DNA of 23,430 nt. Source: a virus. Made by a program: the position numbers and the translations under genes. Below the pieces are notes generated by a model. That model made no database searches, had not been told where the DNA came from, and worked only from the letters and a program-made list of their open reading frames with translations. Every line of letters starts with the position of its first letter. Within the stretch, counting starts at the first letter, position 1. Positions 1 through 12,480 of the stretch are shown in pieces. The stretch spans positions 1 through 23,430 of IMG/VR virus record IMGVR_UViG_3300025941_000096; one strand, 5' to 3'.

Positions 1-1673
1 GGTTCCCTGGCCCGCGAGCACCACGCTGGCGGCGGCGCGCAACAGCGGGGCAGGGGCGGTGAGCGTCCCGGCGCCGGCCAAGGTCGCGGCGCCCGGAGCG
101 TAATGGATCCCCGAAGCAGCGAGCGTGCCGAGACCGGCCAGTGCTGCGGTAGCCGGGCGCTGTGGCCCGCCAGCCGCCGCGAGTGTGCCGATACCCGCCA
201 GCGATGCAGACGCACGGCGCAGCACAGCAGCGTCCGCGAGCAGCGTTCCGCTGCCGTCCATCCTGGCGCTTGCGAGGGCGCTCAGCGCCGCCGATGCGGC
301 CAGGGCACCCAGACCATTGAGGGCGATCCCGACCGAGCCGGCCTGCCGATCGCCGGAGGCGAACAACGCCCCGGTGCCTGCCAGGGCAGCGGTGGCGAAG
401 GTCGTCTTGACCGGGCCGGCGACGAGGACGCCAAGGCCGGCGAGCGTCGTGGAGGCGAGCAGCTTCGCGGCGAACGTCGCCGATAGCGCACCAGCACCGT
501 CAAGCTGCGCTGCGGTCGGCAAGCGAAGCGCGGCAGTGACATCGAGCACCGTGCCCGCGCCGTCGAGCTGTGTGCTCGCCAGCGCACGCTGGCTCGGCAC
601 AGCCAGGAGCGAGCCGAGGCCGTCGAGCTGTGCGGCGACAAACCACCGCGAGACGCCGGCCGCCTGTCCCTGCACCGCGCCGAGACCCGCCAGTGTTGCG
701 CTGACCTGCCCGCGCAGGATCAATCCGCCGACAACCGTGCCGACGCCGGCCAGCGTGGCGATGCCCGGCTTGAACCCGGTCGCATCACCCGCGCAGGTTC
801 CGACACCCGCCAGCACCGCCGACGCCGCAACCGCGCGACCGCCGTTGGCCGCGAGCGTGCCTGTCCCTGCCAGCGTTCCGGACACCACATCGCGCAGCAC
901 GACGGCACCAGCAGCGGTGCCCGCCCCGTCCATCTGCGCCGAACCGAACGGCATGACGAACGGCGCAGCGGAGAGCGTCCCTGTGCCAGCGAGCAACGCC
1001 GTGGCGGGCTTCTGCGGCAATCCGCCGGCGAGCGAGGTCGAGCCCAGGCCGGCGAGAGTGGCGCTGGCGCGCGCGACCACCACGCCGCTTGAGGTCACCG
1101 CACCAGAGCCGGCGAGAGTCGCGGAGGTACGTCGGAGGATCCGTGAATCGGCCGCGAGCGTGCCCGCGCCGGATAGCGTCGCCTGTATCGTCCAGAGCTG
1201 CACCGCGGCCGCGGCGACAGTGCCGAGACCTGCCAGCGTTGCGCTGCCGATGGGATTGCCGACGGCATCGGCGGCGATCGTGCCAAGGCCCGCGAGTGCT
1301 GCTGTGACGCGCTGATTGGCGACCAGCGCCGCGTCGATCTCGCCGTCGCCATCCAGCTCGGCGTCGGTCGGTCGGAACACCGAAACATCGCCGCTGAGTT
1401 CGCCGTCGCCGTCGAGTTCGGCGGCGGTCGGATGGACGATCGGCGCCGCGTCGGCCGTGAAGCTGCTGCTTCCCGCCATCGGCACGAAGCACAGCAGACG
1501 CGCGATCGGCGAAGCGGCGAGCGTGCCGGCGCCATCGAGGCGCGCGCTGGCGAACACCAGACGACGCAAGGTCGCGTTGAGCGTCCCCGTGCCGGCGAGC
1601 TGTGCGGCGAGCAACTGCCGCTGCCGCGCGGTGCCGATCAATGTGCCAAGCCCGTCCGCTTCGCCCGCAGCGG
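1..1673 (-). repeat. C-terminal repeat array of the giant protein, continuing past the edge
   Basis: About 28 cores follow module D, from ADGLGTL to LAGQGT at base 1, so the array is still running where the window ends. Two neighbouring units (1333-1359 and 1393-1419) read LDGDGE instead of LDGxGT. Confidence 0.8.
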
Positions 1674-4600
1674 CGAGCAACAGGGTCGGCGCGAAGTCAG
1701 CCGCGCGGTTCGAGATAGCGAGCGTGCCGGCTGGCGGCAGTATCAGCGAGGTCGCGCTGTCACCCGGCTCGAGCTGCCATCCCGCGACCCGCACCGTGAA
1801 GTCGATCGTCTGGTTCGCGCCCGCCGTTATCTGCCAGAGGGTGAAGATCTTGGCGGTGCTCGCATTGAGCAGCGTCCGCGACATCTGGATCCGATTGTTG
1901 CGCAGTGCTCCCTGCTCGGGGAACCCGACCGTGGCCGAGAAGTTGTCGAGGACCGCGTTGGCCGATGACAGGCCTTGGATGTAGAGCCGGACGAGCGTTA
2001 TGCCATCGAGGTTACCGCCGACCAGAGCGATAAAAGCCGAGGTCGCCCACTGCTGTCCGGCCGCCGCCGCGGGCGCGTTGGTCGCCGCGACCGGATAGAT
2101 ATTCATGTTGGTGTTGGTCGCGGCGGCGGTGCCGAAGAAGCGGATATCGACGTACGAAAAGCCGTTCTGGCTTCCGGTCTCGACGATTTGCCGTTGGATC
2201 GACACGCTCGCCGACTGCGTGGTTGTCCAATACGTCGGCATCGTGCCGGTGGTGCCCACGATCGCATTCTCGCCGCGCGGGTTCGGCAGCCCATTGGTCG
2301 AGGCGCGCTCGATCAGCAGGTAGGGACCAGCCAGCGTGTCGGGGTCGTAGCCGAAGCGCGGTTCGTTGATCGCGGCACTGTCGACCAGCATCCCGTCGCT
2401 ATCGAAGTATGTGGCTGTGCTCGCGCGCGAGAACGGCAGCACGCCGCCCAGGCCGTCGAGGTTGTTGCGCTCGGCCACCCGGTTGATCTGCGACGCATCG
2501 GCGGTCAGCGTGCCGGCGCCCGCCAGCACCGCGTTTCCGTTCGGCCGGTGCAGCGCGTTCGCGGTCAGCGTATGCGTGCCGGTGAGCGTGGCGGCGACGC
2601 CGGCCAGCAGGTTCGGGCTGTAGCTTTCCGGCGCGCGGATCGAGGCCACGCGCTGGCCGATGGGTGGCAGGATGAGCGTGGACGGCTTCGGAAGCTGTTC
2701 GAGCTGTGGGCACGAAATGCGCAGCGTGTAGTCCTCGGCCTGCCCCGATGGCGCGGAGCGTCCCGGCTGCAATCCGCCACGGATGAAGGTGGCGCCTGAC
2801 AGGCTGGGGATCTGGTAGCTGACCGTGATGCGGGTCAGCCGGTCGGTCCGGATGCTGGCGCCGGCGTTGAGGTTGTGCAGCGCGGTCAGCCCGGTCGCGC
2901 CGTTGAACGGCTGGAGATAGATCGACGTGCTCGCTGTCGGCATCGCGCCGGCGATCAGCTGGATGTCGAGCGAGAACGACCAGAACTGCCCATCCGCGGC
3001 GAGACAGACGCTGTTGGTCTCGAAGTTCCAGGTCGGCGTGCCGGTGGCCGATGTGGTGCCGCTGACGCGGATATCGACGTAGGGCTGGCCGTTCTCCTGA
3101 TAGCCGAAACCGACGACGTTCCGTGCGGTGCCGGCGATCAGCGCGATGGTCCAGTTAGTCGGCAAGGTGCCCGGTGAGCCAACGACCGCGGCCTCCGCGC
3201 GCGGGTTGCGGATGACGTTGGTGGCGCCGTTCTCGATGATCAGGTTGAGCGGCGCATGGGTATCGCGGTCGAAGCCGATACGCGGCACGCCTGCGCCGAC
3301 CGTGACCAACATGCCGGTCTGGTCGTAGTACGTTGCCGAGGATTCGCGGACGAACGTCGCGACCGCACCGAGACCGTCGCCCTCGAAAGTGCCGAGCGGG
3401 TTGGCGGTGCCGTCGGCGCTGATCGTGCCAAGCCCGGTCAGCGAGGCACCGAGCGGGGCGTAGTGCACGGCGTCGATCGCGACCGTGCCAGCGCCGTCCA
3501 TCTCGGCTGTGATCGGATAGCGCCCGCCGCCGTCGCCCAGGACAGCGCCAATGCCAGCGAGTGCCGCCGCGATCGTCGGCGTGTGCGCGCCCGATGGCGT
3601 GATGGTGCCCAGGCCCGCGAGCGTTGCCGAGGCGAACTTGCGATTGTCAGCGGTGGCGACGCAGGTGCCGAGACCGTCGAGTTCCGCTGCCGCCTGTTGC
3701 CGCTGTCGTGCGGTGCCGACCAGTGTGCCCAGCCCGTCGAGTTCGGTGCTGACGGCGGCGAGCAGCACCGGGGCGAATTCCTGCGCGCGGGTCGAGGCCA
3801 CACGCGCATTGATCAAAGGCAGTGTCGGAGAAGTGGCAAGCGGTCCGCGCTCGAATTGCGGCATCGCGATCCGCAGAGTGATGTCAACGGTCGCGGCAGC
3901 GGATGAGAAGGTAAAAGTGCCACATGGAGAGATCGACGAGGTGCCGGAGGTGACGGCGCCCGTCAGGGAGTAGCGTGTCAGCGTCGCTGTTGGGACGAAA
4001 ATGAGGGACGGTAGCGCTGCGCCACCGTTCATCCGCGTGTTGATGCTGTATGAATTGATCTGCGACAGCGAACCGCCGACGATCGCGCAGTAGAAGCTCT
4101 GGGTCCAAACCTCGCCGACCTGGGCCACGCCGGGCACGGCGATATTGCCAGCGTCGAACGACAGCACGTTGAAGTTGCCGGTGCTGGTGCCCTGCCAACG
4201 GATGTCAACGTAGGGGATCCCATTAATGGTACCAGCGCCGACCGGCGTGATGGTCAGGCCGTTCTGCCCGCCGACGTTGTTCCAGAACTGCGGATAGGCA
4301 AGCGGCGTGCCGACAGTCGCGCCCTCGGCGCGTGGGTTGCGGATGTAGTTGGTCGTCGCGCCTTCCAGCAGCATCCCGAGCGGCGCGAGGGTGATCGGGT
4401 TATAGGTGAACCGCGGGACGTTCGAACCGACCTCGACGAAATTGCCGTCCTGGTCGAAATACGTCGCATTCGAGGCGCGCGAGAACGTCGCGGTCGTGCC
4501 CAGCCCGTCAAGCTCGCCGCCGATCTGCGAGGCGCTGGTGAGCGTCCCGGCAATCGTCCCCACGCCATTGATCTGCGTCGTGCCGGCGAAGGTGAATCGC

Positions 4601-7155
4601 GTGCCGGTGGGGGTAATCGTGCCTATACCGGCGAGCGTCGCCGAGATCGTATGGGTGATCGCGCGCGAGTTGCCGGCGAACGTGCCGATGCCATCGAGTT
4701 CGCTGGCGACAACATCGAGCAGCACCGGCGCCAGCTCTTGCGCGCGGGTCGAGACTGCCACCTGACCGACCGGTGGCAGGATCAGCGTGGTGGCGCGGGC
4801 GACGTTCTTCTCGAATTGCGGCCCGCCCCAGGCCAGCGTGAAGTCTGCTGCGAATCCCCCGGCGCTGCCGCGCGCAGCACCCATGAACACGCGCAACAGT
4901 GCGGCCGTCGCGTCGTTGACGGTGAAGGTCCAGGAGAACCGCTGTGGCGTCGAACTCAACTGGCTGAAGATATTCGGTCCGGCATAGGTGGTGAGCGCCA
5001 CGGAGCCCGAGGTCAGCGTCGCCGCTTCCATGGTGAATGTCGCGGTCGGATGGACGCCGGCAATGATCGCCAGATCCACCGAGATCGTCACCGTGTCGCC
5101 TTGCACCACCGGCATCAGCGTGGCGCCGGTGCTGTTGTCGATGTAGAGAATCATGCCGCCGGAACCGATGGTTCCGTACATGCGGGCGACACCGAACGTC
5201 TCGCCGTTAATGACCTGACTGCTCAGATCACGGTTCAGCCCGAGCATCGACCATGCGGCGTAGCCGGTCGGCAGCGTGCCGATCGTGCCCGGCACCAACC
5301 CCACCATGCGCGGATTGCGACTGTAGTTCGTCCCGGCCGCCTCGAGCAGCATCCCCTGAGGCGCGTGCGTCACCTGATCGTAGCCGAAGCGCGGCACGTT
5401 GGCCGCGACCTCGATCAGATTGCCGGATTGGTCGTAGTACGTCGCGGTCGAGGCGCGCACGAACGGCAGCACCGCTCCGATGCCGTTCAACGTCGCCGAC
5501 GAGAACCAGATCGAGAAGCCCTGCGCTTGTCCGGAGAAGGTGCCGAGGCCGGCGAGCTGCGCGGCCATCGTCAGAGTGCCGAGCGAGACCGCGGCGCTCT
5601 GCGTGCCAAGCCCGGCCAGCGAGGCTGCGGCGCTGGCGATGACCTGGGCGTTCGCGGTCAGCGTATGGCTGCCCGACAGCGTGGCACTGGCGACGAAGGC
5701 GATCTGCCCGGCACCCGTGACGGTGCCGAGCGCGGCGAGCGTGGTCGTGCCGCTTTGCGTCGCTCGTGCCCCGTCGGCGGCAATCGTGCCGATACCGGAG
5801 AGGGGCGCGCTTGCCGCCAGCCGCATCCGCACCGACTGATCGGGCGTCAGCGTGCCGAGACCATCGAGTTCCGCGCTCGCCGCGCGCCGGGGCGCCTGCG
5901 CCGCTGCGCTGAACGTGCCCAGCCCGTCCAGCTCGATCGCGCTGTTCCCGCTCGTGCCGCCGCCGCTTAACCCCACGGTGCCAAGGCCCGCCAGCGTCGC
6001 GGCCAGCAGCGGCGTGTGCGTTGCGTTGGCGGTCAGGCTGTGCGTGCCGCGCAGCGTCGCCGAGGCCGACAGGACCAGCCGGTTCGCCGAGCCGGTGAAC
6101 GTGCCCGCACCCGCCAATGCACCGGCAGCCAGCGGGTTATGTGTGACATTGCCGATGACGGCGCCAAGGCCCGGAAGTGTGCGACTCGCCAGCAGCCGCG
6201 CGATCGGCGTCGCGATGACGGCGCCCAGGCCGTCGAGATCGGCCGTCGTCAGGCCGGTGGAGGTGGCACCCGCGCTGAGCGTGCCGAGACCGTCGCATCG
6301 GCCGCTGATAGTCCAGCGCTGATCGGCGTCAGGTGCCACAGCGCCGAGGCCGTTGAGCTGCGCCGAAGCATAGGTCCGCCGCCCGATGCTGCCGCTGACC
6401 GTGCCGGCGCCGCTGAATGTGCCGGCGTTGGTCACCCATCGCTGCCGCGCGGTCGCATTGATCGCGCCGAGGCCGGCGAAGATGCCCGCGCCGAATGCGG
6501 TATGCGAGGCATCGGCATCGAACGTGCCGGCGCCATCGGCCTCCCAGGCAGCGACCAGCCGCAGCACCGCGCTCGCAATGAGGCTGTGCGATCCGCTGAG
6601 CGTGGCGCTCGTGGGCAGCAGCAGGCGGCTCGTGACAGTGAGCGCGCTGGTTCCTGCCAGCGCAGCCGAAAGCCTCGGCGTGTGCGACCCTGCACCGGTG
6701 ATCGTGCCAAGCCCGGCAAGCGCGCCGGAGACTGACATCCTCTGCCGGGCGGTCGCGGCGATCGTGCCCGCGCCGCTGATCGTCGCGGCAAGCAGCGGCG
6801 TATGTGTGCCGGAGCCTCTGACAGTGCCGACGCCTGCCAGGGTGGCGCTACCGAACTTCGTGACGACGCCGTTGGCGGTGAGGGTGCCCGCGCCCCGGAG
6901 GATTAGCTGGTCGGCAAACTGAAGGCCGATAGCAGCGAGCGGTCCGGCGCCGAGCGGAGCAAAGCCCAGCACCGGCTGCTGCGCGGGCGGCGGCGGTCCC
7001 CACGCAGCATACAGCGTCGCCTGACCGACGAGTGTCGCTCGGCCGAGGGGATTGTGGATGCCGTTGGCGGTGAGGGTGCCACGACCGTCAAGGGATCTGA
7101 TCGTGTCGCCGCCAGAGGCGATCGGAAAGCCGGCAATCGGGACGAGGCCGGCCAT
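1..7155 (-). CDS. Giant repeat-and-CBM tail-associated protein, 3' end beyond window
   Basis: Reading the minus strand from ATG at 7155 gives 2,385 codons with no stop to base 1, so the C-terminus lies outside the window. I translated the frame through and checked the phase at several points (7155-5472, 7155-4485, 7155-3354, 7155-2442 and 7155-1419 are all divisible by 3). The protein alternates arrays of a ~20-residue repeat (consensus LAGxGTLxA or LDGxGTxxA, about 70 copies by eye) with four ~250-residue modules near residues 562-815, 889-1133, 1266-1521 and 1572-1828. The modules have the phage carbohydrate-binding-module pattern: RASxATYxDxxG, PRFxYD, LIExxxTN, then QLExG...LILPP...RA. 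No signal peptide or membrane segment is evident. The start lies 6 nt after the upstream tailspike stop, with only a weak TAGGT ribosome site. Likely role (inference): very long fibre, adhesin or receptor-binding protein of the virion. Enzymatic activity is not apparent. Confidence 0.88.
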   Translation of the reverse strand, partial: MAGLVPIAGFPIASGGDTIRSLDGRGTLTANGIHNPLGRATLVGQATLYAAWGPPPPAQQPVLGFAPLGAGPLAAIGLQFADQLILRGAGTLTANGVVTKFGSATLAGVGTVRGSGTHTPLLAATISGAGTIAATARQRMSVSGALAGLGTITGAGSHTPRLSAALAGTSALTVTSRLLLPTSATLSGSHSLIASAVLRLVAAWEADGAGTFDADASHTAFGAGIFAGLGAINATARQRWVTNAGTFSGAGTVSGSIGRRTYASAQLNGLGAVAPDADQRWTISGRCDGLGTLSAGATSTGLTTADLDGLGAVIATPIARLLASRTLPGLGAVIGNVTHNPLAAGALAGAGTFTGSANRLVLSASATLRGTHSLTANATHTPLLAATLAGLGTVGLSGGGTSGNSAIELDGLGTFSAAAQAPRRAASAELDGLGTLTPDQSVRMRLAASAPLSGIGTIAADGARATQSGTTTLAALGTVTGAGQIAFVASATLSGSHTLTANAQVIASAAASLAGLGTQSAAVSLGTLTMAAQLAGLGTFSGQAQGFSIWFSSATLNGIGAVLPFVRASTATYYDQSGNLIEVAANVPRFGYDQVTHAPQGMLLEAAGTNYSRNPRMVGLVPGTIGTLPTGYAAWSMLGLNRDLSSQVINGETFGVARMYGTIGSGGMILYIDNSTGATLMPVVQGDTVTISVDLAIIAGVHPTATFTMEAATLTSGSVALTTYAGPNIFSQLSSTPQRFSWTFTVNDATAALLRVFMGAARGSAGGFAADFTLAWGGPQFEKNVARATTLILPPVGQVAVSTRAQELAPVLLDVVASELDGIGTFAGNSRAITHTISATLAGIGTITPTGTRFTFAGTTQINGVGTIAGTLTSASQIGGELDGLGTTATFSRASNATYFDQDGNFVEVGSNVPRFTYNPITLAPLGMLLEGATTNYIRNPRAEGATVGTPLAYPQFWNNVGGQNGLTITPVGAGTINGIPYVDIRWQGTSTGNFNVLSFDAGNIAVPGVAQVGEVWTQSFYCAIVGGSLSQINSYSINTRMNGGAALPSLIFVPTATLTRYSLTGAVTSGTSSISPCGTFTFSSAAATVDITLRIAMPQFERGPLATSPTLPLINARVASTRAQEFAPVLLAAVSTELDGLGTLVGTARQRQQAAAELDGLGTCVATADNRKFASATLAGLGTITPSGAHTPTIAAALAGIGAVLGDGGGRYPITAEMDGAGTVAIDAVHYAPLGASLTGLGTISADGTANPLGTFEGDGLGAVATFVRESSATYYDQTGMLVTVGAGVPRIGFDRDTHAPLNLIIENGATNVIRNPRAEAAVVGSPGTLPTNWTIALIAGTARNVVGFGYQENGQPYVDIRVSGTTSATGTPTWNFETNSVCLAADGQFWSFSLDIQLIAGAMPTASTSIYLQPFNGATGLTALHNLNAGASIRTDRLTRITVSYQIPSLSGATFIRGGLQPGRSAPSGQAEDYTLRISCPQLEQLPKPSTLILPPIGQRVASIRAPESYSPNLLAGVAATLTGTHTLTANALHRPNGNAVLAGAGTLTADASQINRVAERNNLDGLGGVLPFSRASTATYFDSDGMLVDSAAINEPRFGYDPDTLAGPYLLIERASTNGLPNPRGENAIVGTTGTMPTYWTTTQSASVSIQRQIVETGSQNGFSYVDIRFFGTAAATNTNMNIYPVAATNAPAAAAGQQWATSAFIALVGGNLDGITLVRLYIQGLSSANAVLDNFSATVGFPEQGALRNNRIQMSRTLLNASTAKIFTLWQITAGANQTIDFTVRVAGWQLEPGDSATSLILPPAGTLAISNRAADFAPTLLLAAAGEADGLGTLIGTARQRQLLAAQLAGTGTLNATLRRLVFASARLDGAGTLAASPIARLLCFVPMAGSSSFTADAAPIVHPTAAELDGDGELSGDVSVFRPTDAELDGDGEIDAALVANQRVTAALAGLGTIAADAVGNPIGSATLAGLGTVAAAAVQLWTIQATLSGAGTLAADSRILRRTSATLAGSGAVTSSGVVVARASATLAGLGSTSLAGGLPQKPATALLAGTGTLSAAPFVMPFGSAQMDGAGTAAGAVVLRDVVSGTLAGTGTLAANGGRAVAASAVLAGVGTCAGDATGFKPGIATLAGVGTVVGGLILRGQVSATLAGLGAVQGQAAGVSRWFVAAQLDGLGSLLAVPSQRALASTQLDGAGTVLDVTAALRLPTAAQLDGAGALSATFAAKLLASTTLAGLGVLVAGPVKTTFATAALAGTGALFASGDRQAGSVGIALNGLGALAASAALSALASARMDGSGTLLADAAVLRRASASLAGIGTLAAAGGPQRPATAALAGLGTLAASGIHYAPGAATLAGAGTLTAPAPLLRAAASVVLAGQGT
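1674..2444 (-). repeat. CBM-like module copy D (residues ~1572-1828)
   Basis: It opens VLPFSRASTATYFDSDG, continues EPRFGYD, LLIERASTNGLPNPRGEN and YVDIRFFGTAA, and closes GWQLEPGDSATSLILPP and ISNRAADFAPTLL. This is the copy closest to the classic phage form, in which QLExGxxATSxIxP is followed by TRAAD. Confidence 0.78.
2445..2593 (-). repeat. Repeat array between modules C and D
   Basis: A short linker holds about three cores (LTGTHTL, LAGAGTL, LDGLGGV). It is the shortest of the internal arrays. Confidence 0.65.
2594..3364 (-). repeat. CBM-like module copy C (residues ~1266-1521)
   Basis: It opens ATFVRESSATYYDQTG, continues VPRIGFD, LIIENGATNVIRNPRAEA, PYVDIRVSGTT and FWSFSLDIQLIAG, and closes CPQLEQLPKPSTLILPP and VASIRAPESYSPNLL. 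The PxVDIR segment is shared with copies B and D. Confidence 0.75.
3365..3756 (-). repeat. Repeat array between modules B and C
   Basis: About seven cores (LDGLGTL, LDGLGTC, LAGLGTI, LAGIGAV, MDGAGTV, LTGLGTI, GDGLGAV) are spaced at roughly 20 residues. Confidence 0.7.
3757..4494 (-). repeat. CBM-like module copy B (residues ~889-1133)
   Basis: It opens ATFSRASNATYFDQDG, continues VPRFTYN, MLLEGATTNYIRNPRAEG and VDIRWQGTSTGN, and closes MPQFERGPLATSPTLPL and VASTRAQEFAPVLL. The ends match copy A closely. The centre is diverged and includes a YCAIVGGSL stretch similar to the FIALVGGNL stretch in copy D. Confidence 0.75.
4495..4710 (-). repeat. Repeat array between modules A and B
   Basis: About four repeat cores (LDGIGTF, LAGIGTI, INGVGTI, LDGLGTT) separate the two modules, with the same ~20-residue spacing as the terminal arrays. 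Confidence 0.7.
4711..5472 (-). repeat. CBM-like module copy A (residues ~562-815)
   Basis: It begins VLPFVRASTATYYDQSG right after an LNGIGA repeat core. It continues with VPRFGYD and LLEAAGTNYSRNPR, and closes with GPQFEKNVARATTLILPP and VSTRAQELAPVLL before the repeat array resumes. The opening RAS-AT-Y-D...PR...E...TN string and the closing Q(L/F)E...LP...RA string are those that bracket jelly-roll carbohydrate-binding modules in many phage tail proteins. Confidence 0.75.
5476..7095 (-). repeat. N-terminal LAGxGTL repeat array of the giant protein
   Basis: Roughly residues 20-560 consist of about 26-28 degenerate copies of a ~20-residue unit. Typical cores are LAGLGTI, FSGAGTV, LDGLGAV and LSGSHTL, often followed by an (A/S)A(D/N)(A/G) stretch and a short variable piece such as RQR or HTP before the next core. 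On the DNA this gives a ~60 bp periodicity of GCCGGC-like and GGCACG-like words. The alternating small and hydrophobic residues suggest a beta-strand-per-turn solenoid or stacked beta-hairpins (inference). Confidence 0.8.
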
Positions 7156-7161
7156 GTGAAC

Positions 7162-8883
7162 CTACCCGCTGACGGGGCCAGGACCCGCGTCGATCACCGC
7201 ACCGCTGTTGATCTGGCACGCACGCAGATAGTGGACCGGACCGTTCAGGTTGTAGTTGCCCTGGGCGTTCGCCTGGAACTGCATCCCGGTCACGAGCAGC
7301 GCAAAATTGCCGCTCGTATTGACGCCCCATCCCGTGTTGTTTGCCACCCGCCCGCCGGTGATATTGATCGGCGCGTCCTGCGTCGGCAGATTGATGCCGT
7401 CGCCATACACGCCGTCAACGGTCAGATTCGAGAACGACACATACCCGCAATGCGACAGCAGCGAGAGACCATGCGCTATCGGCGCTCCAGAGATGCCGTT
7501 GATGGATCGGCCCCACACCCGGATATTCGATCCCTCTACGTACAGGCACGTATCGAACGTAAATGCCGGTCCGTTGGATAGTCCCGCAAGGCAGTTTTCG
7601 ATCTGAATGTGGTTGATGTTCGAGAACACGAAGCCATAGCCGTCCACCGAGTCGGACATGCAATCGGTCATCCAGATCGAGCTCGTGTTCCTGAAGGAGA
7701 ATCCCCAATTCGCCGTGATGGCCGCGCCGCGCGAGTTGCCGTTCGCAAAGCACCGGGTAAATTGCGCGCCGCCGACCGGCCCCGAGGTCGCGATGACCGC
7801 GTTGTCGATAACGAAACCCGGATGGTCCGACAGGCCCACCGGCTGCTGCAAAAAATCAGCCAAGCAATCCACGAACTGCAAGAAGGCGAAACCACGCAGG
7901 ATATTGAAAGCGGGCGCGCCCCTGGTTGAACGTGAGCGCACGCGAGTCGCATATAGCGAGACGTAGGCTGTGTTGCCGGAGCCAGTGTCGTCCAGACACC
8001 CCCAAGGACTAAAGCTCTCGATGTCCTCTAAATAGATGCGATCCAGCCCAAACCCGGGGCCCGCTCCGCAGTTGAGCAGAATGTCGACCCCGCCCGTCTT
8101 AGCGGCGTTTTGCAGGGTCAATCGCTTGAGGCTGACGTCGGTGCCATTGAGGGTGAACGTCGGGAAGGACGCCGCCGCCGTGACAACGGTCGCTTTGCTC
8201 TCCGGCCCGATGACGGCGCCCCCATCCGGCACATTGAGTGTACCGCTGACCAGGAACTGCGCCGGTCGGCCCGGCAGAAACGCCACGCGCCCTGCCGCGA
8301 GCGTGGCGTTGATCGCTGCGGTGTCATCGGTCGTGCCGTCGCCTTTGGCGCCGAACCACCGCGCCGAGAACTCTTTCTTGTCGCCAACATCACGATACCA
8401 GCGCCGCCCAGCGGCATCGACGATGATCGTCCCGCCATTGTCTGCCGACGTGGTATCGGCGTCGATCAGGGTGAACCGGCCTTCGCCGCCGTCCCCTGGC
8501 GCGTAGTAGCCCATCAGCTGCACGACGTTGGTCATAAAGGTCGTGTTGGCGCGGAGCGCGGCTATGTTGGCGATCCCAGCGACAGCATTCATCGAGCCGG
8601 CAGCGACGGTGAGGAACACCGACGCACTGCCGGTCAGGCTGATCTTTCCACCACCAATCGAGGAGCTCTCGACGAAATCGCGGGTGATCGTCGTGGCGCC
8701 CAACGTGCCGGTGCCGAGTTCCCACGAGACCCCGTCGATCAGGGTGTAGGAGACATCGGTCCCGACCGCGAGGCCGGCCGCACTCGGCGTGCGATAGCTG
8801 AGGACCGCCGCGCCGAGCGTGATCGTGCCGGTCCCGACGGTTGGCGTGTAGCACCAGACCCTGTCAGCAAAGGCATAAGCCAT
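7162..8883 (-). CDS. Beta-helix tailspike 2, putative polysaccharide depolymerase
   Basis: This 573-residue protein is a paralogue of the gene just upstream. Residues 1-95 form the tail-anchor domain common on phage fibres and spikes (FADRVW, GTGTITLG, YTLIDGVSWELGTGTL, FLTV). Residues ~99-172 are an insertion absent from the paralogue, containing YYAPGDGGEGRFTL and GTIIVDAAGRRWYR, a segment familiar from other spikes. FGAKGDGTTDDTAAIN at 177-192 is the pectate-lyase-3 type entry into a right-handed beta-helix that fills the rest, ending GPGPVSG. Such spikes trimerise and usually bind or cleave surface polysaccharide. I cannot assign catalytic residues or the sugar. It starts 9 nt after the upstream stop. 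The stop and following bases (TAGG) may serve as a weak ribosome site for the giant gene. Confidence 0.88.
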   Translation of the reverse strand: MAYAFADRVWCYTPTVGTGTITLGAAVLSYRTPSAAGLAVGTDVSYTLIDGVSWELGTGTLGATTITRDFVESSSIGGGKISLTGSASVFLTVAAGSMNAVAGIANIAALRANTTFMTNVVQLMGYYAPGDGGEGRFTLIDADTTSADNGGTIIVDAAGRRWYRDVGDKKEFSARWFGAKGDGTTDDTAAINATLAAGRVAFLPGRPAQFLVSGTLNVPDGGAVIGPESKATVVTAAASFPTFTLNGTDVSLKRLTLQNAAKTGGVDILLNCGAGPGFGLDRIYLEDIESFSPWGCLDDTGSGNTAYVSLYATRVRSRSTRGAPAFNILRGFAFLQFVDCLADFLQQPVGLSDHPGFVIDNAVIATSGPVGGAQFTRCFANGNSRGAAITANWGFSFRNTSSIWMTDCMSDSVDGYGFVFSNINHIQIENCLAGLSNGPAFTFDTCLYVEGSNIRVWGRSINGISGAPIAHGLSLLSHCGYVSFSNLTVDGVYGDGINLPTQDAPINITGGRVANNTGWGVNTSGNFALLVTGMQFQANAQGNYNLNGPVHYLRACQINSGAVIDAGPGPVSG

Positions 8884-8892
8884 GACTGTCGC

Positions 8893-10416
8893 CTATCCGC
8901 TGACGGGACCGGGTCCCACGTCCACGACCGCGCCGCTGTTGATCTGCGTGTCACGGAGGTAATGGATCGGCCCGAGAATGTTGTAGTTGCCCGCGCTGTT
9001 CGTCGAAAGCTGCAGGCCGACGCCGAGCAGCGCGTAGCTGCCCGAGGTCTCGATCCCCCACCCGGTGCAACCGATGACCCGACCGCCTGTGATGTTGATC
9101 GGCCCGATCTGTCCAGGGATGTTGATGCCGTCGCCGAATACCCCGTAGATCACGGGATTGACGAACGACATGATGCCGCAGTTGGTCAGGAGCGAGATGC
9201 CGGGAGCGTTGGCCGCGCCGGGAATACCGCCAGCGTTCCTGCCATACACCCGCAGATTGGACGCCTCTAAATACAAGACGGTGTCGAACGTCCAGCCGGG
9301 TCCGTTGACCAAGGTGCAGCCGCAGTTGTCGATGTGGACTTGATTGACGTTGGCGAACACAAAGCCATAGCCGCCGACCGAGTCCGCACGACAGTCGGTC
9401 AGCCATACCTCGCCCGTATTGTTGAAGTGAAACGCGTTATTCCCGGTGATCGTGGTGCCGCTGTAGTTTCCGACCGAGAAGCACCGCGTGAGGAAGGCTC
9501 GTCCCGGCGGATTGGCGCCCGCCCCCCCGATCAAGGCATTGTCGATCGCGAAACCATTGAAGTCGGAGAGCGGCGACGACACGCTGATGAAATCGGCGTA
9601 GCAGTCCTCCATCACGAGGTAGCCAAAGATCCTTGTTAGACGGAAGGCGTCCGCCCCACGGCAGGAAAGCGAACGCACGCGGCGCACGAACGTCGAGACA
9701 TAGAAGTTCGTGCCCGAACCGGTATCCGCGATGCAGCCCCACGATGAAGTTGCCTCGACATCCTCGATGATGATCCGCTGCAGCGGTGTCGTCGGCCCGA
9801 CATCGATCAGGATATCGGCGCCGCCGGTCTTGTTGGCGTTGAAGATCTTCAGGTTCTTGACGGTGGTGTCGAGCCCGGTGATGCGGATCAGCGGAAAGTT
9901 TGCCGCCGCGGTGACGATGGTGGCCTTGCCCTCTGTACCGATGATTGCGCCATTGGACGGAAGCGTTAGCGTGCCGCTGACCAGGAATTGCCGGCCGCCG
10001 CCCGGTATATACACCACGCCCGCCGCCGCGATCGCATCATTGATCGCCCCGGTATCATCATGCACGCCATCGCCCTTGGCGCCGAACGCCATCACCGAGA
10101 TGGGCTGACCGGCCAACATCGCGGCGGTCACGGTCAGGAAGCACGAGGCATTGCCGCTCAGCGACAGCTTCGCACCTCCCGCCGATGAAGCCTCGACCGT
10201 ATCGCGGGAGAGCGTCCATGGCGTGCCGCTCGTGAGGACGCCTTTGCCGACCTCCCAGCCTACGCCGTCAACGATGGTATAGTTGACCGCTGATCCGCTC
10301 GGGATGCCGGCGGTCGCCGGCACCTGATACGAGATGAGCGGCGTCCCGACAGTGAGCGTGCCAGTACCGAGCGTCGTGGTGTTGAACCAGACGCGATCGG
10401 CGAAGGTGTACGGCAT
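8893..10416 (-). CDS. Beta-helix tailspike 1, putative polysaccharide depolymerase
   Basis: This 507-residue protein has the anchor domain at 1-100 (FADRVW, GTGTLTVG, YTIVDGVGWEVGKGVL, TLSRDTVEASS). It passes directly into the FGAKGDGVHDDTGAIND signature (111-127) and a right-handed beta-helix with repeated N-x-x-I/V-x-G/N turns, ending GPGPVSG. The whole helix aligns with the neighbouring tailspike, including CxADF, GYGFVF(A/S)N(V/I)N, ITGGRV and INSGAVxD(A/V)GPGPVSG, so the pair arose by duplication. Family knowledge suggests a trimeric virion spike that recognises or degrades capsule or O-antigen. Enzymatic activity is inferred, not shown. It starts 6 nt after the upstream stop with a poor ribosome site (AAGG only 2 nt from the ATG), so translation may depend on coupling. 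Confidence 0.88.
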   Translation of the reverse strand: MPYTFADRVWFNTTTLGTGTLTVGTPLISYQVPATAGIPSGSAVNYTIVDGVGWEVGKGVLTSGTPWTLSRDTVEASSAGGAKLSLSGNASCFLTVTAAMLAGQPISVMAFGAKGDGVHDDTGAINDAIAAAGVVYIPGGGRQFLVSGTLTLPSNGAIIGTEGKATIVTAAANFPLIRITGLDTTVKNLKIFNANKTGGADILIDVGPTTPLQRIIIEDVEATSSWGCIADTGSGTNFYVSTFVRRVRSLSCRGADAFRLTRIFGYLVMEDCYADFISVSSPLSDFNGFAIDNALIGGAGANPPGRAFLTRCFSVGNYSGTTITGNNAFHFNNTGEVWLTDCRADSVGGYGFVFANVNQVHIDNCGCTLVNGPGWTFDTVLYLEASNLRVYGRNAGGIPGAANAPGISLLTNCGIMSFVNPVIYGVFGDGINIPGQIGPINITGGRVIGCTGWGIETSGSYALLGVGLQLSTNSAGNYNILGPIHYLRDTQINSGAVVDVGPGPVSG

Positions 10417-10422
10417 CGCCTT

Positions 10423-10818
10423 TTAGGTCAGCGTGATGACCAGCGAGGCGGCGTTGAACACCACACTGTCGCCGACGCCCAAGGTGCGCGGGGTGGCGAG
10501 CAGGCCATACCACAGCTCGTTGCCGACGGTCGCCGCCAACGTGTCCCACACCTGCATGCCCTGGATGGTGCAGGCACTGCTGAACGGTCCGAACGTCATG
10601 GCGTTGATGTTCGTGCTTGACCCGGCCGGCGAGGCCGCAGCACCGAACGTGCAGGTCTGTCGCGCGTAGCCCGAGCCGGTGCCGATCTCCGAGCCGGCAG
10701 AGGCGGCAGGCGTCGCGGTGCTGAGGCCGACGCCGATCACCGCCGGCCGCGTCGGCGTCGCGCCGAGCAGCACCCAGTCGAGCATCGCTTTCTCGGCATA
10801 ATCTGAAATCGCAGGCAT
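10423..10818 (-). CDS. Small phage tail/fibre-associated structural protein
   Basis: This 131-residue protein resembles a widespread family of small virion-type phage proteins. It has an N-terminal amphipathic start (ISDYAEKAMLDWVLLG), a PAVIGVGLSTATP strand, a conserved GYARQT segment (~50-55), an MQVWDT segment, then LWYGLLATPRTLGVGDSVVFNAASL (split as LWYGLLATP and VGDSVVFNAASL). In relatives the pattern YARV, W-G-L and GD-x-x-x-F-x-x-x-L recurs, usually beside tail fibre genes. No enzymatic motif is visible. It has a good ribosome site and begins 2 nt after the glycosyltransferase stop. The exact role (fibre component or decoration) is unknown. Confidence 0.65.
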   Translation of the reverse strand: MPAISDYAEKAMLDWVLLGATPTRPAVIGVGLSTATPAASAGSEIGTGSGYARQTCTFGAAASPAGSSTNINAMTFGPFSSACTIQGMQVWDTLAATVGNELWYGLLATPRTLGVGDSVVFNAASLVITLT

Positions 10819-10820
10819 GG

Positions 10821-11855
10821 TCAGGCTCCTTTCAGCAGGTTGCTCGCTTCAACGACGATCCGATCGACGCTGATGTCCGAGATGCAGGCGGCGCCGTTGT
10901 TGGCCGCATTCGGGGTGCAGGTGTCGGCCCGTTCCTGCAGCCGGTGGCACGGCCAGCACGGCACACGCTGCGGATCGGCGTGCAGCGTGACGGTGTTGAG
11001 CCAATGCGCGGTGATGTTCTTCGGCGAGGCGTGGCTGAGCAGGACGATCTTCGGCAGAGGTGCCATCGCCACCGCCCACATCGGCCCGGTGTCAGGTCCG
11101 ATCAGCAGATCGCAGGCGAGCGCCTGGGCGAGCGAGCGGCGGATCGGCCAGTCGGCAGCGGGTCCATCCTTCGACGCCTCGCAGGTGATCGCCGCATGAA
11201 GCCCGCGCGTGCTGCCGTTGACGCGCTCGACATGCGCCAAGATCTGCCGCGCCAGCTCCAGCTCGCGTCCAGGTGCGCCGAACAGGACAACCGGGATGTC
11301 GAGTTCCTTGATGATGCGGGCGATCGCCAGCGCGGCGCCCGGATAGAGCTTGTCGATCCGCGTGCCGGCGAGGCACCAGCCGATGACACGCTCGCCGACC
11401 TTCGCCTTGGTCTCCGCCGCCTGCGCCGTCTCGGCCGCCGTCGGGTAGAAGGCGGGGCGGAAGTCGTGATCGACGCCGCAGATGTCGTGGACGACCTCAA
11501 GGTAGTTCCGGTCGCACAGCGCGCGCCGGGCGGCGGCCGGCCAATGGAAGGCCGTCTGCCCCTCGACCAGCGCGGTCAGCGTCTCGCAGCTGTGCGAGAG
11601 GTTGACGAAGAACTCGTATTCGTGGCTGCGCTTGACGAACCAGCCTTGCCAGCCGAGCTGATCGCCGGGCAGATCGCCCTCGCGCAGATAGGTGAGCTTC
11701 GCGACGTGCGGGTTATTCTCGAACACCGCGCCCTGCGGCTCGCGGGTCAGCACCTCGACCTTGTACCGCTGCGCCAGCGTCGGCAGGACAGAGGAGGCAA
11801 TCAGATCGTCTCCGACGCCTCCGAGGCGGCAGAGCCCAGCCCAACCATTTCCCAT
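10821..11855 (-). CDS. Glycosyltransferase family 9-like (heptosyltransferase fold)
   Basis: This 344-residue protein has the GT-B layout of ADP-heptose:LPS heptosyltransferases. The N-terminal LCRLGGVGDDLIASSVLPTL (9-28) matches the GxGDxL phosphate loop. The middle has VIGWCLAGTRIDKLYP (157-172) and IPVVLFGAPGRELELA (187-202). The C-terminal half has the family signature ALACDLLIGPDTGPMWAVAM (245-264). The C-terminus is cysteine-rich (C300-W-P-C-H, C313, C324), unlike housekeeping WaaC/WaaF. It follows the methyltransferase gene by 4 nt, within the fibre cassette. It could glycosylate a virion fibre or alter host surface glycan. The donor and acceptor cannot be told from sequence. Confidence 0.8.
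   Translation of the reverse strand: MGNGWAGLCRLGGVGDDLIASSVLPTLAQRYKVEVLTREPQGAVFENNPHVAKLTYLREGDLPGDQLGWQGWFVKRSHEYEFFVNLSHSCETLTALVEGQTAFHWPAAARRALCDRNYLEVVHDICGVDHDFRPAFYPTAAETAQAAETKAKVGERVIGWCLAGTRIDKLYPGAALAIARIIKELDIPVVLFGAPGRELELARQILAHVERVNGSTRGLHAAITCEASKDGPAADWPIRRSLAQALACDLLIGPDTGPMWAVAMAPLPKIVLLSHASPKNITAHWLNTVTLHADPQRVPCWPCHRLQERADTCTPNAANNGAACISDISVDRIVVEASNLLKGA
10826..10832 (-). promoter_or_regulatory. Ribosome binding site AAAGGAG for the small structural protein
   Basis: On the minus strand AAAGGAG lies 7 nt before the ATG at 10818 and overlaps the end of the glycosyltransferase gene. It is one of the few strong sites in the left half and supports this start. Confidence 0.7.
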
Positions 11856-11859
11856 GTGA

Positions 11860-12480
11860 TCAGATGCGGGCGAGAACCGTGAAGTCGGCGACGATCTGAT
11901 ACAGCGTCTCGGGCATGGCTTCGCGATGCACGACGCGGAAGCCGCCGCCGGTCAGCAGAGTGTCGATGTGCTGCTCATCGTCGGCCCAGATGAAGGCGCC
12001 ATCCTGCCGCGCCGGGATGCAGCGATTATTCCGATTGACCACGTAGAGCACGCCGCCCTTGCGCAACGCCGCATGGAGCAGGGTGATGTCCTGCTTGGGG
12101 TGTAGGCAGTGTTGCAGGCACCACACCGACAGCGCGCCCGACGCCTGCAATCCGGCGGCGACCAGACAGCTCAGCATCGTCGGGCTGACCGCGCCGAATA
12201 TGCCACTCTGGACATACATCTCGGCCTGCGATCGCATCGACCAGGAGAGATCGACGCCGAGCACCGAGTTACTGTCGCCGATCACCTTCGACAGCCGGCC
12301 GATGCCGCAGCCGTAGTCGATGACCAGACCTTCGGGAAACGACATCCGCTCCTTGAGCCACGCGGTTTCCTGTTCCCATCGGTCCTCGGTCGATAGCCCG
12401 GCTTCGGGCGTTAGGATGATCGAACGCGCGGCCGCTTCGGTCTCGCACAGGAAGATGCGGGGGTCATAGGTCAAGGTCAT
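11860..12480 (-). CDS. Class I SAM-dependent methyltransferase
   Basis: This 206-residue protein has the Rossmann methyltransferase fold. Motif I is VIDYGCGIGRL (53-63), the acidic end of strand 2 is VLGVDLSWSM (73-82), a motif IV-like region is GALSVWCLQHCLH (115-127), and LHAALRKGGVLYVVNR (135-150) matches the typical post-motif strand of small-molecule or protein methyltransferases such as the Methyltransf_11/25 groups. No DNA-methylase motif (NPPY or PC) is present, so a restriction role is unlikely. Its ATG overlaps the upstream gp25-like stop (ATGA), and it sits directly before the GT9-like gene. A joint glycan-modifying pair is plausible (inference). Confidence 0.82.
   Translation of the reverse strand: MTLTYDPRIFLCETEAAARSIILTPEAGLSTEDRWEQETAWLKERMSFPEGLVIDYGCGIGRLSKVIGDSNSVLGVDLSWSMRSQAEMYVQSGIFGAVSPTMLSCLVAAGLQASGALSVWCLQHCLHPKQDITLLHAALRKGGVLYVVNRNNRCIPARQDGAFIWADDEQHIDTLLTGGGFRVVHREAMPETLYQIVADFTVLARI

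Follow-up and report, generated by a model that had tools for sequence, protein, structure and literature searches.

The minus strand of the window, a complete linear IMG/VR record of 23,430 bases, carries a genuine gene (1..7155) that is open and under constraint. Its product is probably a giant modular adhesin of the virion, built as a stalk of repeats with CBM-like beads and belonging to a mobile cassette; it would either form a long tail fibre itself or be carried by one. We favour this reading because the frame is open and constrained, the protein holds 64 repeats, PHROG tail families match it, its predicted fold is CBM-like, and tail and spike genes lie beside it; moreover, other domains related to glycans (GH5, LamG, SPRY) are substituted in relatives. 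That the protein is located in the virion, attached to the tail and able to bind sugars is what we infer from the neighbours, the position of the gene, the PHROG filing and the fold.

The preliminary description of this DNA had reported a still-open frame of at least 2,385 codons, and the frame scan of the window agrees, with a run of 2,385 codons from an ATG at 7155 to position 1 and no stop codon before the contig edge, which falls inside the frame. The remaining five frames of 1-7155 contain 13–89 stops each, with longest open runs of 142–638 codons, and when the stretch was resampled 300 times under a Markov-1 model, the longest frame reached 684 codons. Once open-ended frames are allowed, this is the longest ORF of the window, so that the earlier remark that it is hidden from ORF callers holds for listings that omit run-off frames and for no others. 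Its GC content at codon positions 1, 2 and 3 is 0.65, 0.59 and 0.84. A syntenic orthologue of 1,595 residues, which also runs off its contig, is present in IMGVR_UViG_3300009176_000092 (hereafter L090). Between the two genes, third codon positions show an excess of change, and dN/dS is 0.36 at the N-terminus and 0.34–0.56 by segment along the rest, values that are approximate, with dS near or above 1 in places. The frame is thus under purifying selection. In the same comparison the neighbouring tailspike gives 0.19; the giant gene is therefore constrained yet changes faster than the tailspike.

A chimera or mis-joined repeats could in principle yield such a frame, and the contigs of both the window and L090 end inside the gene. 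We consider an assembly artefact of this kind highly improbable, given 7.2 kb free of stops, dN/dS well below 1 and complete relatives of 1,295–3,045 aa in other contigs; it is also no surprise that a 20-kb fragment cuts a gene of this length. The visible 7.2 kb has a longest exact repeat of 21 nt, which makes repeat collapse unlikely in this part, and on these grounds collapse was not accepted as the reason why the contig stops here. Contigs might also tend in general to break within such genes, but this was likewise dismissed, since the frequency is about that expected for long genes on short fragments.

The whole record is linear and its terminal 30-mer had no match in the other viral contigs searched, hence the 3′ end of the giant gene is unseen. 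Relatives with both ends visible measure 1,295 (L144), 2,571 (L146) and 2,959 residues (L199), and L034:7280-16414 encodes 3,045 residues from stop to stop, with four of the same modules as the window and a different repeat consensus (~GVxATGAVG) at the retained 20-residue period. The protein had been called far larger than ordinary fibres, which is true; the existence of the three longest of these relatives makes its size extreme rather than unique. In L106, L144, L146 and L199 the giant protein closes with a short tail that contains LPP motifs, and a conserved gene of ~125 aa (PPLRAGETDGRYID) follows directly on the same strand (L106:1596-1970, L144:16273-16656, L146:10391-10726 and L199:11018-11398), overlapping the giant gene by four bases in L106, L144 and L199. 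We therefore predict this tail and this gene at the end of the window's giant gene. The earlier statement that the frame closes the tail operon is not established, as these four relatives continue with a further gene.

The frame reads as repeats and modules, much as first described. Scanned with a position matrix, the protein contains 64 in-register units of a 20-residue repeat that has no name (shuffled sequences: mean 0.9, maximum 5), and the consensus is approximately xRxxASATLAGLGTLTADAx. Successive units are spaced by exactly 20 residues 43 times and by 21 residues 11 times. The units form five blocks, interleaved with four modules of ~270 residues that share 33–38% identity with one another. 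From the N-terminus, and on the minus strand throughout, comparison with L090 delimits a conserved segment of ~120 residues (6796..7155), a candidate docking part; the first 140 residues are 70% identical between the two proteins. Repeat block 1 (5455..7116), with 26 units of 20–22 residues, is followed by module 1 (4723..5490), block 2 (4537..4722; 3 units), module 2 (3766..4530), block 3 (3394..3765; 7 units), module 3 (2611..3393), block 4 (2491..2610; 2 units), module 4 (1684..2466) and block 5 (1..1683), whose 26 units reach the contig edge. All blocks were placed with the position matrix. All four modules were assigned as CBM-like, module 3 being the one that was modelled. Modules 1, 3 and 4 pair with modules 1, 2 and 3 of L090 at 47–52% identity, whereas module 2 has no partner there, which implies that modules have been gained or lost.

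No family names the repeat or the module in Pfam and NCBIfam scans, which returned a few weak Pfam matches far below cut-off. Two PHROG families of tail proteins do match the giant protein, in its modules only: PHROG 5939 over four stretches (E 2.1e-45) and PHROG 1419 over three (E 8.1e-20). The module model, with pLDDT by blocks mostly at 83–97 and one weaker stretch, is a β-sandwich. Foldseek matches it to CBM4/16/22 structures at E ~1e-5 and TM 0.6–0.7 by target, among them CBM4 1gui (TM 0.63) and CBM16 3oeb (TM 0.68, both by target length); the hyaluronan-binding module 4d0q matches with E 1.8e-6 and a tail fibre chain of Pseudomonas phage Pa193 with E 1.1e-4. Pfam CBM families had no match in the window's own modules, and the relative L144 has a weak CBM_4_9 match below cut-off. 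We predict that the four internal modules are CBM4/16/22-like sandwiches and putative sugar binders. Among the three roles offered in the preliminary description, the adhesin with many sugar-binding heads is the best supported, judging from the CBM-like modules and the stalk repeats between them, while nothing specific favours a tether to the host wall.

The repeat was predicted with medium confidence (pLDDT 73, pTM 0.66) to be all-β, with two strands per 20 residues; it was modelled as a monomer, and a single-chain solenoid and an interlocked trimer fit alike. In the alignment behind one of the structure predictions, a row from a phage record was left out. Against the PDB the repeat model gave nothing significant; the best match was CsgA, a likeness that we rejected as evidence (E 0.05, low TM). 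Significant matches in BFVD are unnamed viral proteins, several of them from uncultured tailed phages. The triple β-spiral shaft, in which a ~15-residue repeat forms an interlocked trimer, was also rejected, as the window and every relative tested have a period of 20.

Repeat proteins of this class recur in viral contigs. An exact DNA pattern of two units found 34 stretches there, and about 22 loci encode repeat proteins according to a profile search. The same pattern found 13 stretches in genome contigs, a far larger collection, and one of these, in Nocardioides (L136), reads as a real array when judged by eye. For the N-terminus of the giant protein we detected no orthologue in bacterial genomes, and for its end array no homologue among known phages (BLAST with the low-complexity filter on). 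Domains inserted in the repeat proteins include a GH5 cellulase (L139), LamG (L108 and, weakly, L097), FN3 (L101) and SPRY (L143). In L139:2088-6560, a protein of 1,491 residues carries the GH5 domain between repeat arrays and is possibly a virion-borne enzyme that cuts glycans. The arrays in L092, L097, L107, L139 and L136 finish with different short repeats, for example WxTRDxxAxW or RTYNVPAENRTV, which could be trimerisation or docking tails.

The giant gene is the last of six in the window's adhesion cassette, all on the minus strand. A class I methyltransferase (11860..12480) comes first, followed by a GT9 heptosyltransferase-like enzyme (10821..11855), a Gp80-like fibre protein (10423..10818; PF23140, podophage GP4 fiber I) that is a candidate adaptor, tailspike 1 (8893..10416) and tailspike 2 (7162..8883). 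Both tailspikes are pectate-lyase-like, and tailspike 2 is related to a PHROG of EPS depolymerases. They are tandem paralogues (7162-10416) with ~55% identity, and each has an orthologue in L090, so the duplication is older than the split of the two cassettes. Window and L090 share 75.6% nucleotide identity over 5.7 kb of the cassette, with protein identities of 53% for the methyltransferase, 66% for GT9, and 77% and 81% for the tailspikes; the high identity ends ~360 nt into the giant gene. Upstream, the baseplate genes of L090 match PHROGs 184, 177, 180 and 203, whereas a different set stands in the window (DUF3383, E217 gp32, Dit-like and others). The two have in common a baseplate-J-type protein (PHROG 6), and the residual similarity between the sets reaches E values of only ~1e-3. 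Alike cassettes beside unrelated baseplates indicate that the adhesion genes were transferred as one unit among phages whose tails differ strongly. We read the giant gene as the variable part of this cassette.

In the mechanism that we propose, the conserved N-terminus would dock on the tail, perhaps via the Gp80-like protein, and the stalk of 20-residue β repeats would reach outward. The four beads could then make many weak sugar contacts, giving avidity for a host polysaccharide that the depolymerase-type tailspikes would subsequently cut. A protein of this size and repeat architecture also resembles bacterial surface adhesins and might instead be made late and released or displayed on the infected cell as a host-surface adhesin or biofilm factor. 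We think this improbable: the gene lies directly behind the tailspikes in a tail operon, its modules fall in PHROG tail families, and Pfam scans of the giant protein found no autotransporter barrel or anchor family.

The GT9 gene, which the preliminary description did not mention, is the most informative neighbour of the giant gene. Its product scores 27.4 bits against Pfam PF01075 (gathering cut-off 22), and five of eight relatives tested also have a Pfam GT9 match. Among solved structures it matches 3tov, a GT9, with E 8e-8, and LPS heptosyltransferase II (WaaF) weakly and not significantly. The enzyme has 344 aa, starts directly at the catalytic G-x-GD region and has invariant cysteines at 300, 303, 313 and 324, a four-cysteine pattern that may be common in other GT9 enzymes.

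A first scan for this enzyme brought up nine further contigs with close relatives, and in each of these contigs GT9 is followed by genes for a Gp80-like protein and for a repeat or module protein. With a broader scan, the number of confirmed relatives in viral contigs rose to 95; the 80 that were kept form 49 clusters at 80% identity, 39 of them with at least 5 kb downstream. In this downstream DNA, a protein with 20-residue repeats or the module occurs in 35 of 39 clusters and a Gp80-like gene in 37; the two occur together in 33. To count as a repeat protein here, a protein needed either a matching peak with z≥4 at lag 20 or 21 or a profile match to the repeat or module. A stricter control of the period considered single ORFs of at least 250 aa at z≥5 over lags 12–29. 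ORFs with period 20 amounted to 35/266 downstream of GT9 and 1/297 upstream; five further downstream ORFs peaked at lag 21 and none at the remaining lags. In phage contigs fetched for the module, the same z≥5 control found 2 periodic ORFs among 731. All 14 minus-strand ORFs with period 20 near GT9 were discarded, each being the antisense shadow of a repeat gene on the plus strand.

Of the 49 clusters, 41 encode at least one of three kinds of enzyme within 6 kb of GT9: a further glycosyltransferase, a methyltransferase (FkbM or other) or an epimerase. A small number of seed proteins served to recognise these neighbours by similarity; of the seeds, FkbM (L150) and the window's methyltransferase were named by Pfam and the other glycosyltransferase and epimerase seeds by eye. 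In L157, L165, L187 and L150, further likely sugar or modification enzymes (a radical-SAM-like protein, epimerases, glycosyltransferases and an FkbM methyltransferase, most of them recognised by eye) stand between GT9 and the fibre gene. The distant contig L152 encodes two GT9 copies (5154-6194 and 9980-10876) that are 24–29% identical to the window's enzyme, with no repeat protein in its available DNA. Some repeat proteins have no GT9 in the available flanking DNA, and no GT9 homologue was found in 50,697 deposited phage records.

The GT9 enzyme and the methyltransferase may act on a glycan tied to the adhesin, most simply by decorating the fibre inside the infected cell prior to assembly. 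That the linked GT9 glycosylates the fibre is a tentative hypothesis and the least certain step of our account. A wider and similarly tentative reading is that a widespread group of uncultured phages carries a mobile cassette in which a dedicated GT9, usually accompanied by methyltransferases or other enzymes of sugar metabolism, adds glycans to the giant repeat fibre of the phage itself, as a viral counterpart of heptosylated autotransporter adhesins. The repeats linked to GT9 are not enriched in Ser and Thr and, if anything, hold less of them (9–33% Ser+Thr vs 15–34% in other arrays, a comparison biased by the pattern that found the repeats without GT9, which forces one Thr), and this speaks against O-glycosylation of the repeats, or at least fails to support it.

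The same lack of enrichment suits the main rival explanation, in which GT9, the methyltransferase and the additional sugar enzymes make up an island for modifying the host's surface polysaccharide, for example to block superinfection. The fibre would then be unglycosylated, and the giant adhesin would be linked to the island only by reading the same polysaccharide. GT9 enzymes are typically LPS heptosyltransferases, a role in keeping with 3tov and, weakly, WaaF as the nearest solved structures, and the further sugar enzymes in many clusters would also be at home in such an island. The enzyme is, however, linked specifically to the Gp80-like gene and to the repeat or module protein (37 and 35 of the 39 clusters), and it lies inside a structural operon, as do autotransporter heptosyltransferases with their adhesins (PMC4358343). 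Taken as a whole, we regard the host-surface island as rather unlikely.

Phage host range is set by the receptor-binding apparatus, most of which is nameless in uncultured phages. The stalk repeat of 20 residues, itself unnamed, is found across many phage contigs together with interchangeable domains that bind or cut sugars, in proteins of up to 3,000 residues, and a cassette beside unrelated baseplates shows adhesion genes travelling as a block. The linkage to GT9 poses a testable question, namely whether these phages glycosylate their own fibres and whether this alters how they bind or evade defence. Adhesins of phages in which sugar-binding domains are repeated have been known before. The 20-residue repeat class, its giant members and the linkage to a GT9 cassette are nameless in the libraries searched; our check of the open literature was limited, and a prior description is possible.

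Comparing the cassette with known systems reveals several partial likenesses. In AAH/TibC with AIDA-I/TibA, as in the phage cassette, a heptosyltransferase-like gene precedes the gene of a β-repeat adhesin, and in the TibC family the enzyme gene often stands ahead of the gene for its adhesin substrate (PMC4358343). Both enzymes likewise have four conserved cysteines close to the C-terminus; in TibC, the heptosyltransferase of an autotransporter adhesin, they form an iron finger (PMC4358343). However, the phage enzyme is a GT9 by Pfam, its cysteines are spaced more closely than those of TibC (339, 342, 358 and 370), it lacks the ~97-residue N-terminal β-barrel domain, and the phage adhesin is no autotransporter. 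Owing to the missing barrel and the different spacing, we do not place it in the BAHT family, and the likeness would seem to extend to gene arrangement only. Mycobacteriophages such as Che8, Corndog and Myrna use their own glycosyltransferases on their own structural proteins (PMC12363180). Their system differs in its enzymes, its capsid and tail-tube targets and its Gram-positive-type hosts, and has no repeat fibre.

For the giant protein itself, the BACON-domain tandem repeat protein of crAss-like phages offers a parallel, as a large protein with tandem carbohydrate-binding domains (PMC6949934); Pfam scans found no BACON domain in the window's protein. Modules of CBM4/16/22 resemble the window's modules in the predicted β-sandwich fold, whereas the latter have no Pfam match and an extra N-terminal RASTATYFD segment. 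The long tail fibre of Pseudomonas phages Pa193 and E217 differs in that a PDB search gave no sequence match and that the available portion of its description does not mention a 20-residue repeat array. That portion does describe a beads-on-a-string fibre on a contractile tail (PMC11042391); in addition, Foldseek matches the module to the Pa193 fibre, and the window has an E217-type tail gene. Finally, gp49 of Azospirillum phage Cd, an annotated tail protein of PHROG 5939/1419, is a protein of 915 residues with one clear module and no 20-residue repeat array, unlike the giant protein. It nevertheless shares the ~270-residue module at 35% identity (E 7e-22), and its gene occupies a late position among the tail genes, as does the giant gene.
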